Shown: piece after piece, positions 7,031 through 17,381 of the stretch
Layout of the letters: the number at the start of each line of letters is the position of its first letter
Numbering within the stretch: position 1 is the first letter of the stretch
NCBI GenBank assembly: GCA_019233375.1
Contig: JAFAMM010000250.1
Span: forward strand, 1-33,837
Length of the DNA stretch: 33,837 nt
Reading direction: 5' to 3'
DNA from: Acidobacteriaceae bacterium
Lineage (GTDB): Bacteria; Acidobacteriota; Terriglobia; Bryobacterales; Bryobacteraceae
The notes under the pieces: model-generated
The model's input: the letters and a program-made list of their open reading frames with translations, nothing else
What the model was told of the DNA's origin: nothing
The model's database searches: none
Program-made: the position numbers and the translations under genes

Positions 7031-7369
7031 TTGCCGACGAAAACAAACGTAACCTTGAATCAACGCGACGCGTTTACCCAGTTCGTGCATGAGCTGATCG
7101 GCGGGGGCATTCGCCGCAACACGTTCACGCAATGGGAACTGGATCTTTTGTTCGATCTGGAAAAGCTTCCGGTACGGAAGTCCGCACGGGGGCAGATCTT
7201 AAGGCGATATACAAAGGCTGTCAGCCAGGCAATGACGAACGGGGCACCGGCGCCGCCACGGCTGCGCGATTTCTTCGCTTTAGAGATGGAACGCCAGCAT
7301 GCGGAGATGCTGGCCGCACGCGCCGAGGGGTTATCTGAAGAGCATATTCTCGCGCACGCCGTGAGTTAA
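7031..7369 (+). CDS. Conserved-looking small hypothetical protein
   Basis: 112 residues from a TTG start. I do not recognise it. It is mainly helical and charged, with an aromatic segment [17 protein letters not shown] (about 36-52) followed by [16 protein letters not shown], and no signal peptide or membrane helix. The 91 bases upstream lie between its start and that of the divergent NfrB-like gene and may hold promoters for both. Its stop TAA (7367-7369) shares three bases with the stop of the converging MoaD-like gene. The composition and length make it a plausible real gene, but the start lacks a clear Shine-Dalgarno. Confidence 0.6.
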
Positions 7370-7707
7370 AAGGCCGCTTGTTCAGGCGCGCGGCTCGGTT
7401 TCGGCAATGTTATGCCGCCAGCTATAGCGCCGACGATGAGAAGCGGCTCAACGCCGGCCGCAACCGGCGCCGGAAGAAGCATGTCGGGCGATTCGTGCGA
7501 GATATCCTGCTCGCACGCGAAAAAACGAACAAACGCGCGCCGGCGCTGGCTGGTGTGATCGCGAATGGCCCCGCAGAGCACCGGATAACGCCCCTCGAGC
7601 GCGTCAAGGACGGCGCGCAACGTCACTTCGCCTTGGACAGAAACTTCGACCTCCCCCGTCACCCGGGCCAGCGTTCGTAGATGAGCAGGGAGGACGACCC
7701 GGATCAT
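7366..7707 (-). CDS. MoaD/ThiS-like ubiquitin-fold protein with post-GG extension
   Basis: 113 residues. The beta-grasp pattern of MoaD/ThiS sulfur carriers is seen: [14 protein letters not shown] opening strand, [17 protein letters not shown] helix, and the closing strand [12 protein letters not shown] with the Gly-Gly at 97-98. In working sulfur carriers this Gly-Gly is the extreme C-terminus, adenylated and thiocarboxylated. Here 15 further residues follow ([15 protein letters not shown]). A TAA occurs in another frame one base after the second Gly codon (7412-7410), so a one-base insertion is a possible origin. The gene overlaps the upstream propeller gene by four bases (ATGA) and is last in the DGPF-propeller-MoaD operon beside the ECF42 sigma gene. 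A role in molybdopterin or thiamine synthesis is not supported by the neighbours. Confidence 0.8.
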
Positions 7708-8819
7708 AACAGGGTCTGGGCCTCGACGGAAAAGACAGCCGGAAGATCGCGCACAATCGCCTGCCAGCTATCGCCCGCGTCGCTCGAGCCGTACACCTGG
7801 CCGCCGGTGGTTCCGAAATACACGCCGCACGGATCGAGCAAATCGACTGACATGGCGTCTCGCAGAACGTTCACATAGCAGTCGCTCTGCGGTAAACCTC
7901 TGCTGAGCGGCTCCCACTCGTTACCTCCCGCACGACTGCGATACACGCGCAGCTTGCCTTCGGGAGGATAATGCTCCGCGTCGCTCTTTATCGGCACGAC
8001 ATAGACGGTCTCTGGTTCGTGCGAGTGGACATCAATTGCGAAACCGAAATCGGTCGGGAGATTGCCGCTGACTTCGTGCCACGAATCTCCGCCATTATCG
8101 CTGCGCATCACATCCCAGTGCTTCTGCATGAAGAGTACGTCGGGGCTGGAGGCGTGCTTGGCCACATGGTGAACGCAGTGGCCGACCTCAGCCGTTTTCT
8201 CAGGGAGAAACTCGGACCGCAGGCCATTGTTGATGGGACGCCAGGTCGCACCCGCATCATCGGTGCGAAAGGCGCCCGCGGCGGAGATGGCGATGACCAT
8301 GTAACCCGCATTGGCGGGGTCGAGGAGGATGGTATGGAGGCACATGCCGCCTGCTCCGGGCTGCCAGCGCGGGCCCGAGCCGTGGCCGCGCAAGCCGGGC
8401 AGCTCCTGCCATGTTTTGCCGCCATCTGTGGAGCGGAATAGCGCCGCATCCTCCACTCCGGCAAAGACAGTGTCGGGGTCTGTCAGCGAAGGTTCCAGGT
8501 GCCATACGCGCTTGAACTCCCAGGGGTGGGGCGTGCCATCGTACCACTGATGCGTCCCTGGGACACCGTCGTAAACAAATTTGTTTCCGACCGGCTCCCA
8601 GGTTTTCCCACCGTCATCCGAACGCTGGATCTGCTGGCCGAACCACCCGCTCGACTGAGAGGCATAAATACGATTCGGGTCGACAGGCGAGCCCTTAACG
8701 TGATAAATCTCCCAACCCGCAAAGTGAGGACCGCTGACCTCCCACTTTTCACGCTTACCGTCGGAGGTCAAGATGAAAGCTCCCTTGTGTGTTCCGATCA
8801 GAAGCCGTACCTGGCTCAT
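7704..8819 (-). CDS. Asp-box (BNR/sialidase-like) beta-propeller protein
   Basis: 371 residues made largely of six propeller blades, each with an Asp-box (S-x-D-x-G-x-x-W-like): RSDDGGKTW (66-74), STDGGKTW (130-137), RTDDAGATW (185-193), RSDNGGDSW (239-247), a degenerate RSRAGGNEW (294-302) and SSDAGDSW (345-352). No signal peptide is visible, so it is probably cytoplasmic. The catalytic Arg triad and Tyr/Glu of true sialidases are not evident, so I call it a WD40/YVTN/BNR-like protein rather than a sialidase. A strong AGGAG lies 6 bases before the ATG. It is 24 bases downstream of the DGPF gene and overlaps the MoaD-like gene by four bases, indicating one operon. Confidence 0.88.
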
Positions 8820-8843: not shown

Positions 8844-9200
8844 TCAATAGGCTGGCAGATTTGGAAGCTCGACCACCGGACGGATTTCGACCGTCCCCTT
8901 ACGAGCCGCCGGTATCCGGGCGGCGATGCAGATGGCTTCGTCCAGGTTGCCGGCGTCGACAAGAAAATAACCGCCTAGTTGTTCGCGCATTTCGGCGAAG
9001 GGACCATCAGTCACCATCGGCCTGCCATCGCGAACCCGCACACTGGTGGCCGTAGAAACCGGCTGCAATGGCAGCGAGGCGAGGTACTGGCCGGACGTCT
9101 GGAGTTGGTGCGCCAATTCGGTCGACTCCACATAACACTGTTCCCTCTCGGCTTCGGTCCAGGCTTGCTCGTCGCCATAGATGAGTAGCATGTACTTCAT
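8844..9200 (-). CDS. YCII/DGPF domain protein
   Basis: A 118-residue single-domain protein of the YCII family. It opens [14 protein letters not shown] and carries the family name-giving motif in [20 protein letters not shown] (83-102), which contains DGPF. The function of DGPF proteins is not established; they are recurrently encoded next to ECF42 sigma factors, as here. GGAGAG lies 7 bases before the ATG at 9200. It heads the three-gene minus operon, and the symmetric TGTCG-N18-CGACA element upstream places its likely transcription start almost at the Shine-Dalgarno. Confidence 0.95.
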
Positions 9201-9217
9201 TCAGATCTCTCCAAAGT

Positions 9218-9246
9218 ATGTCGGATTGCATGAGGCCCGATCGACA
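9218..9246. promoter_or_regulatory. Candidate bidirectional ECF42-type promoter
   Basis: Between the divergent DGPF gene (start 9200) and the sigma factor gene (start 9274) lies the inverted repeat TGTCG (9219-9223) - 18 bases - CGACA (9242-9246). Read on the minus strand it gives TGTCGA (9246-9241), 17 bases, CGACAT (9223-9218). Read on the plus strand it gives TGTCGG (9219-9224), 17 bases, CGACAG (9242-9247). From memory, ECF42 promoters have TGTCGA at -35 and a CGA-type -10, so one element could drive both units. The short arms could also arise by chance or bind a dimeric regulator. Confidence 0.5.
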
Positions 9247-9273
9247 GGTAAGAGCATATTTCTAAAATCGGAT

Positions 9274-10539
9274 ATGCCTGCCTGCGCAAATGAGGCTGTG
9301 GAAGCAGTTTATCGCTCCGAGTGGGGGCGAATTGTCGCGACGCTGATTCGTCTGGTGGGCGATTTTGAGCTGGCTGAGGAGTGCGCGCAGGAAGCGTTTG
9401 CTGCCGCGTTGGAGAAGTGGCCGGAAACAGGCGTGCCTGATTTTCCGCGCGCCTGGCTCATCCAGACGGCGCGCCACAAAGCCATTGACCGGATCCGGCG
9501 CAGGCAGAAGTTTGAAACGCCGCTCGAAAAGCTGGACACTACGCAACTGGCGGATGGGCGCGAAGCGCCGGGTTTCGAGGGGAATGACATCCCTGACGAG
9601 CGGCTCCGGCTGATATTCACCTGTTGTCACCCCGCGCTGGCGCCAGAGGTGCAAGTGGCTCTGACGCTGCGGACTTTGTGCGGCCTAACCACAGAAGAGA
9701 TTGCACGGGCCTTTTTGGTGCCGGAGGCGACCATGGCGCAGCGGCTGGTAAGGGCCAAGCGCAAGATTCGCGACGCGGGCATTCCGTATGCGGTGCCGGA
9801 AACGGCGGATTTGCCGGGGCGTCTGGACGCCGTCCTGACGGTGATTTACCTGGTCTTCAACGAAGGATACGCCGCAACGCGCGGCGATTCACTGGTGAGG
9901 GTGGATCTTTGCGCGGAGGCGATACGATTGGGGCGGCTGGTCCGAACGCTTATGAGCGCTGACCATTCCGGCGAAGCGACGGGACTGCTGGCGCTGATGC
10001 TGCTGCAGGACTCGCGACGCCAGGCGCGGCATGATGAAGCCGGAGAACTGGTCCTTTTAGAGGAGCAGGACCGGAGCCGTTGGGACCGCAGACAGATCGC
10101 AGAGGCTCTGCCCCTGGTAGACGAAGCCGTCCAAAAGGGTCTGAGGCCGTTCGCTGTGCAGGCGGCGATTGCAGCGGTGCATTGTCGGGCCAAACGCCCA
10201 GAGGACACGAATTGGCGGCAGATCGTGGCGCTCTACAATGTACTCGAAGCTCTGCAGCCTTCGCCCGTTGTATCGCTGAATCGGGCGGTGGCGGTGGCGA
10301 TGGTGGATGGCCCGGAGAAGGCGCTCGAAATCATCCAGTCGCCAAGACTCGCGATAGAACTTGACAAATATCACCTTCTGCACGCGGTGCGCGCGGACCT
10401 CCTGCGGCGAATGGGGCGCTTTGACTTAGCAGCCAAGAGTTACGAACGCGCGCTGGAACTGGCAAATAACACCACTGAAAGAAAATTCCTGGAGCGGCGA
10501 TTAAGCGAAATGCGGGGGAACCAGGCGCAGAGCGCGTAG
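9274..10539 (+). CDS. ECF42-type RNA polymerase sigma factor with TPR-like C-terminus
   Basis: A 421-residue sigma factor, far longer than a simple ECF (about 190 aa). Region sigma2 spans about 10-78 ([46 protein letters not shown]) and sigma4 about 110-168 ([19 protein letters not shown], then [20 protein letters not shown] and [10 protein letters not shown]). A DUF6596-like middle follows ([18 protein letters not shown]), then a TPR-like tail (about 320-415; [38 protein letters not shown]). This architecture and the adjacent DGPF gene identify ECF42. No anti-sigma gene is adjacent, consistent with control through the C-terminal extension. The frame is open from 9181, but that start would overlap the DGPF gene and the promoter; the ATG at 9274 matches the family N-terminus. 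Confidence 0.93.
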
Positions 10540-16871: not shown

Positions 16872-17381
16872 TCAGTAATGGCAGGCGGCACAATCCTGTG
16901 ACGCCTTCCGTTGCCGGTGGCACGTGAGACAGGTTCCCATGGTGAAGTCGATTGACCGGACGGCGACTGTTTCCTGACTCATCTCGCCGTGGCAAGTCGC
17001 GCACGAGATGTTCGCCTCGAAATGCGGCGCGTGACGAAACTTGACGTGAGCATCGCTCGAGAATCCATAGACCCGCCGCCATGGGATTTCTTCGCCCTTT
17101 TGTGCGTATTGAATGACTTTCTTCACTTCGGGTTTATTTGTAGCTAACTTCGCGTGGCAGAGCATGCATTTTGTGACCGAGGGGATTCCGGCTGCGGCGC
17201 GTATGTCGGCTCCGGTGTGGCAGTCGACACAAGCAAGCCCGAGCTTCATGTGCGTGTTGTGCGGGAACTGAACCGGCTGGTTCACGGCCGCTAAAGAGAG
17301 CGCCGCATGTAGAAGAAAGAGCGCCGTGATCCGGGCGCACCGTTTTGGCAGCCCCTCACTCCATGGGTCGGTTCGAAGCAA
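16872..17381 (-). CDS. actA: Pentaheme cytochrome c (ActA-like)
   Basis: 169 residues with five CxxCH heme sites at 51-55, 72-76, 127-131, 151-155 and 164-168 and extra His residues for bis-His coordination. It is the class III/c7-like cytochrome that heads ACIII clusters. An N-terminal hydrophobic stretch (RITALFLLHAALSLAA) serves as signal or anchor, and QPVQFPHNTHMKLGLACVDC is the ActA-like opening. The start is uncertain: TTG at 17381 is the only standard start upstream of the signal, with no Shine-Dalgarno. The five-heme count and position before actB1 support the ActA name; a Qrc-type QrcA is the alternative, but DUF3341 downstream favours ACIII. Confidence 0.88.
   Translation of the reverse strand: MLRTDPWSEGLPKRCARITALFLLHAALSLAAVNQPVQFPHNTHMKLGLACVDCHTGADIRAAAGIPSVTKCMLCHAKLATNKPEVKKVIQYAQKGEEIPWRRVYGFSSDAHVKFRHAPHFEANISCATCHGEMSQETVAVRSIDFTMGTCLTCHRQRKASQDCAACHY

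Follow-up and report, generated by a model that had tools for sequence, protein, structure and literature searches.

The question raised by this locus is what an inverted repeat is doing between two divergent genes, one for an ECF sigma factor and the other for a YCII/DGPF protein. In the window (i.e. the whole stretch of 33,837 nucleotides that was analysed), the repeat lies in the 73-base gap (9201-9273) between the YCII/DGPF gene on the minus strand and the sigma factor gene on the plus strand (Table 1). The symmetric element is real and as the initial annotation described it, with TGTCG at 9219-9223 mirrored by CGACA at 9242-9246; it reads TGTCGG (9219-9224), N17, CGACAG (9242-9247) on the plus strand and TGTCGA (9246-9241), N17, CGACAT (9223-9218) on the minus strand. 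From this it had been proposed that a single ECF42-type element fires both ways, the -35 of each direction being the -10 of the other, which would result in autoregulation (positive, as the sigma factor would activate its own gene) and mutually exclusive firing. By itself the repeat is unremarkable, since the two copies of TGTCG-N15..20-CGACA found in the window (starting at 9219 and 17204, versus 0.34 expected) are equalled or exceeded in 9 out of 100 shuffles; the noteworthy thing about it is its location in the gap between divergent genes. The second copy, TGTCG-N16-CGACA, spans 17204-17229; finding this many in the window is no more than chance allows.

Table 1 Features of the divergent sigma factor-YCII locus (window coordinates)
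Feature	Position	Strand	Remarks
YCII/DGPF gene	8844..9200	-	Predicted to be read from the ECF42-type promoter
GGAGAG, Shine-Dalgarno-like (YCII gene)	9207..9212	-	At the predicted mRNA 5' end, near 9211-9212
ECF42-type -10, minus-strand CGACAT	9218..9223	-	Same bases on the plus strand: TGTCG 9219-9223, the plus-strand -35 of the initial annotation
Putative shared box ATCGACA	9240..9246	both	Minus TGTCGAT, ECF42 -35; plus TCGACA 9241-9246, candidate -35 of the sigma factor gene
Putative -10 element TAAAAT of the sigma factor gene promoter	9263..9268	+	16 bases past TCGACA, 5 before ATG
ECF42-like sigma factor gene	9274..10539	+	Region 2, region 4.2, DUF6596, weak C-terminal TPR matches

The sigma factor is ECF42-like. 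Sigma70_r2, Sigma70_r4_2 and DUF6596 all score above their own cut-offs, and regions 2 and 4 are followed by a long C-terminal extension like the TPR-bearing one of this group (the TPR matches, at 369-403, being below cut-off), while the adjoining YCII/DGPF gene is a further group trait. Among the NCBIfam matches listed (25 of 49), general sigma70-ECF is the only model above its cut-off, and solved structures match the protein only weakly, in ECF sigma regions and repeat proteins. According to PMC6180224, ECF42-type sigma factor genes have no identified anti-sigma factor nearby. Close behind the YCII gene, on the same strand, lie a gene for a BNR/sortilin-type repeat protein (7704-8819) and one for a 113-residue protein with no Pfam match (7366-7707); the YCII gene and these two (7366-8819) are probably one operon.

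Relatives of the sigma factor were drawn from genomes of the same genus, family, class and phylum (with E-value cut-offs of 1e-40, 1e-120 and 1e-142, depending on the search), and from named genomes, of which the best 80 were kept; the three closest of these belong to acidobacteria, as the window probably does as well. A divergent YCII gene is present within 900 bases at 65 of the 162 loci with a sigma factor match, a count that still includes L163, a duplicate of L124 that was removed afterwards. The orthologue counts are based on 71 loci with at least 58.8% identity, window included. In 62 of these, CGACA lies in the 75 bases that precede the sigma start; nine lack it there (L023, L045, L086, L120, L133, L141, L165, L167 and L170). 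Leaving the window aside, the remaining 61 of the 62 were aligned on CGACA, by which its own columns are fixed; since relatives are not independent samples, p-values are merely indicative.

In the direction of the YCII gene, the ECF42-type promoter proposed by the initial annotation is well supported: the minus strand reads TGTCGA-N17-CGAC, with a spacing that is fixed in the orthologues. At a constant distance from CGACA the alignment has TCGA (T in 55, C in 58, G in 59 and A in 57 of the 61 loci), an A precedes TCGACA in 58, and the bases between the boxes are less conserved; the minus-strand consensus is TGTCGAT, 16 bases, CGAY. The general pattern, i.e. TGTCGR, a 17-base spacer and CGWC, is found in the minus strand of the window, in the orthologues, in one-way promoters of more distant sigma loci, and in the S. 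meliloti RpoE10 targets listed in Table 1 of PMC6180224, which are likewise near YCII and ECF42-type sigma factor genes. Of 104 co-oriented YCII genes examined at the distant loci, 45 have the one-way version of the motif in front of them, with A following TGTCG in all 45 and CGAC in 38. These one-way occurrences led us to reject the idea that a dimeric regulator uses the repeat as its operator and that no promoter is involved. Two 5-base arms arranged as an inverted repeat in an intergenic gap would suit such an operator, but the arm symmetry is not preserved in relatives and the motif fits the RpoE10-dependent promoters listed in PMC6180224, which makes an operator hardly credible.

By analogy with one S. 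meliloti RpoE10 target (SMc01149, as presented in PMC6180224), the start of the YCII transcript was placed 9 bases past the fourth base of the -10. A Shine-Dalgarno-like sequence follows the minus promoter in 44 of 49 close pairs; in five orthologous loci it begins at about the expected start, so that the leader would open with it. Among the minus promoters, that of the window is comparatively weak (rank 55 of 62 when scored with a matrix made from 37 one-way ECF42 promoters), and it has a G at 9224 where 57 of the 61 relatives have A. Elsewhere in the same genome, contigs C53, C24 and C214 have TGTCGA-N17-CGWY upstream of YCII reading frames; the motif also occurs near YCII matches on C196 and C248, with no long reading frame directly downstream in the latter two (with a looser pattern there were 516 matches, too many to be specific). 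On C53 (L178, 1501-2365), the ECF42-type promoter and its YCII gene precede an apparently broken second sigma factor gene, as judged by eye from the translation. At some loci the divergent element adjoins a gene other than YCII, namely at L122 (DinB-like), L123 and L148 (both GyrI-like), L147 (DUF899) and L164 (Phd/YefM), where the promoter stays with the sigma factor gene while the neighbouring gene changes. At L013, the gap between the YCII and sigma factor genes is ~415 bases long, with an intact copy of the element by the sigma factor gene and a second, imperfect one by the YCII gene.

A second ECF42 promoter, directed towards the sigma factor gene, is a different matter. Of all 67,610 positions in the window, the ECF42 matrix ranks the minus reading first (12.6) and the plus reading second (11.5), and no other locus among the 62 has so small a margin between them. 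Nevertheless, the minus reading outscores the plus reading in 62/62 loci, and when core matches are counted instead it is higher in 57 and equal in 5. Owing to the self-complementary TCGA, the reverse reading exceeds the 99.9% point of window positions at 57 of the 62 loci. The joint conservation of TGTCG and CGACA that the initial annotation expected in orthologous gaps is not seen in the alignment, where TGTCG occurs on the plus strand at 6/62 loci (the window, L122, L123, L136, L161 and L164); this is no more frequent than CGACA in the -10 of one-way promoters (4/45, Fisher p = 1). The perfectly symmetric form requires T at 9219 and G at 9220, while the 61 relatives have A (46), T (9) or G (6) at the former place and mostly G (34) or A (25) at the latter.

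Some observations do favour one element firing both ways. Within the window's genus TGTCG is present in 3/6 loci, compared to 3/56 elsewhere (p = 0.009, for a comparison chosen after seeing the data), and the five relatives have the plus-strand sequence as TGTCGA. Furthermore, two of the three genus loci with TGTCG (L122 and L123) have no TAnnnT 16-19 bases past the box, a DinB-like and a GyrI-like gene, respectively, now being situated between the element and the YCII gene, and TGTCG is also present in a decayed locus of this genus (L190), with one extra base between the boxes. Against this, the window reads TGTCGG on the plus strand where 45/45 one-way promoters have TGTCGA (although TGTCGG does occur among the S. 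meliloti RpoE10 targets given in PMC6180224), and the other conserved promoter of the sigma factor gene, discussed below, is retained in the window, L136, L161 and L164. S. meliloti RpoE10 moreover failed to activate its own operon (PMC6180224, which draws attention to a motif that overlaps the start site). On balance, it is improbable that one ECF42 element fires both ways and thereby brings about positive autoregulation and exclusive firing, although two-way firing may occur in this genome and in its genus. ECF42 promoters look symmetric by nature, as the TGTCGA of the -35 and the usual CGAC of the -10 are partly each other's complement, and the perfect mirror symmetry in the window looks mostly accidental. 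Symmetry as a functional feature was rejected on the same grounds, i.e. arms that are not kept symmetric in relatives, the rarity of the plus-strand TGTCG and the consistently better minus reading.

Within 9100-9400, a scan for sigma-70-type sites returned a single one, matching at 10 of 12 positions: TCGACA (9241-9246), N16, TAAAAT (9263-9268), followed after 5 bases by the ATG at 9274. The window thereby has the housekeeping arrangement of a TTGACA-like box (TCGACA differing from TTGACA only at position 2), 16-18 bases and a TATAAT-like box. TAnnnT is present 16-18 bases past TCGACA in 45/62 orthologues (and absent there in 17), compared to a mean of 5.0 and a maximum of 13 in 2000 mononucleotide shuffles of the same 24 bases. 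Including a distance of 19 bases this becomes 54/62, the exceptions being L018, L122, L123, L124, L147, L148, L152 and L159. When the best-scoring TAnnnT per locus is chosen, its spacer is 17 bases in 20 loci, 18 in 18, 19 in 8, 16 in 4 and another length in 5, with none found in 7. Facing outward from one-way ECF42 promoters, TAnnnT at 16-18 bases was found in 0/45 (versus 45/62, p = 4e-16); since their GC content is different (0.49 vs 0.38) and a gene on the outward side is not required of them, this control goes no further than ruling out the -10 as a by-product of the ECF42 box.

The position of the -10 relative to the start codon points to a leaderless transcript. The start codon lies 5-7 bases past the -10 in 44 of the 50 loci with a chosen spacer of 16-19, and in the remaining six, where the ATG is more than 7 bases away, the spacer is still 17-19. 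Shine-Dalgarno-like sequences precede the sigma start in only 2/62 loci, the window not being one of them, versus 49/53 for the YCII start. The candidate arrangement in the window resembles that of leaderless genes in PMC3160421 (TANNNT ~12 bases before the start), the first T of its TAnnnT being 11 bases before the ATG and a Shine-Dalgarno sequence being absent. The sigma factor mRNA is therefore predicted to be leaderless, with its 5' end near 9274, and its promoter to resemble a housekeeping promoter of the leaderless type. According to a table in PMC3160421, on average 13.3% of the genes in three acidobacterial genomes are leaderless; divergent promoters are outside the subject of its passages on leaderless genes.

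Sequence anatomy, conservation and spacing thus place two different promoters back to back, and it seems probable, judged from sequence, that both use 9240-9246 as their -35, one being an ECF42 promoter for the YCII gene and the other a housekeeping-type promoter for a leaderless sigma factor mRNA, which would entail mutual exclusion and self-limitation. The case for this double use is built on the spacing to the plus-strand -10, on L153, where the ECF42 -10 has been lost while TCGACA-N17-TAACAT is kept, and on the match to the housekeeping -35 in 5 of 6 positions. Conservation of the box as such requires no second role, since TGTCGA is present in all one-way ECF42 promoters anyway. It could therefore be that only the ECF42 promoter uses the box, and that the sigma factor gene is read from a leaderless TAnnnT that functions as a -10 alone, at a distance of 16-19 bases due to common descent and little space. 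That a -10 may work without the shared -35 is indicated by L165 and L167, which retain TACCAT before the sigma ATG in the absence of the CGACA box. However, 38/62 loci have a best-scoring TAnnnT at 17 or 18 bases despite varying start-codon offsets and outer gap lengths, and the retention of TCGACA in L153 is not what a -10 acting alone would lead one to expect; we regard this alternative as unlikely. Further points against the shared box are the nine of 71 loci without CGACA, the loci lacking TAnnnT at 16-18 (17 of 62) or 16-19 bases (8 of 62), the departure of TCGACA from TTGACA, the low rank of the window's own minus promoter mentioned above, and the over-representation of the symmetric form in its genus.

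The composite was also searched for irrespective of genes. TCGAA-N14-ATCGACA-N16..19-TANNAT, a strict pattern that misses many true loci (the window among them), was matched 21 times, in 19 of the 344 genomes searched within the class, versus once for the reversed control. With one extra base between the boxes (i.e. off by one), 3 matches were obtained in 399 genomes, and again 1 for the reversed control. A tblastn search showed sigma factor sequence just downstream of 18 of the 21 matches (only a remnant in L207), while none was found there for L205, L209 and L211, although L205 and L211 do have a divergent YCII gene. In L190 (with its extra base), L207, L209 and L211 the composite has outlasted a sigma factor gene that is decayed or missing.

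With the box shared between the two promoters, the sequence of events would be as follows. Housekeeping polymerase would make the sigma factor through TCGACA-N16-TAAAAT on the plus strand, and the ECF42 holoenzyme would read the YCII gene through TGTCGAT-N16-CGAC on the minus strand. As both promoters need the same base pairs (9240-9246), the two polymerases should exclude each other if both promoters fire. Active sigma factor would then throttle its own gene, because its holoenzyme on the overlapping YCII promoter would block fresh sigma synthesis, and we infer only from this geometry that the feedback would be self-limitation, not self-activation. Of the exclusive firing foreseen in the initial annotation, the exclusion itself thus remains likely, as two outward promoters do overlap, but the second of these is probably not of the ECF42 type. 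Positive autoregulation has become the less likely reading, because the plus-strand ECF42 reading is unconserved and the sigma factor gene appears to have a separate, housekeeping-like leaderless promoter of its own.

Known systems resemble this arrangement in part. In S. meliloti the YCII and sigma factor genes are predicted to be cotranscribed (PMC6180224), whereas in the window they are divergent and the ECF42-type -35 occupies the same bases as a housekeeping-like -35 of the opposite strand. The bidirectional promoters described by Warman, Grainger and colleagues (PMC12825309) are similar in that RNA polymerase can bind a short pseudo-symmetric stretch of DNA facing either way; occupation in one orientation precludes the other, the directions compete once activity is high, and strong activation in one direction can repress the other. 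Those promoters, however, share their -10 (with sigma-70 consensus), while the window has separate -10 elements (9218-9223 and 9263-9268) and would share the -35, with two sigma factors acting. No report of a -35 common to an ECF and a housekeeping promoter was found among the matches listed in a keyword search of the open literature (titles and beginnings of abstracts).

For the annotation of such loci there are two traps: ECF42 boxes contain the self-complementary TCGA, or most of it, and mimic inverted repeats, and TGTCGA in reverse reading resembles a housekeeping -35. That the locus represents a conserved self-limiting switch in one box, in which the -35 of an ECF promoter doubles as the housekeeping -35 of its own sigma factor gene, without a repressor or anti-sigma factor, is a tentative proposal that we put at below even chances. 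If true, a -35 common to two different sigma factors would take the concept of bidirectional promoters beyond those known to share a -10, and it would provide ECF42-type sigma factors with a built-in brake.
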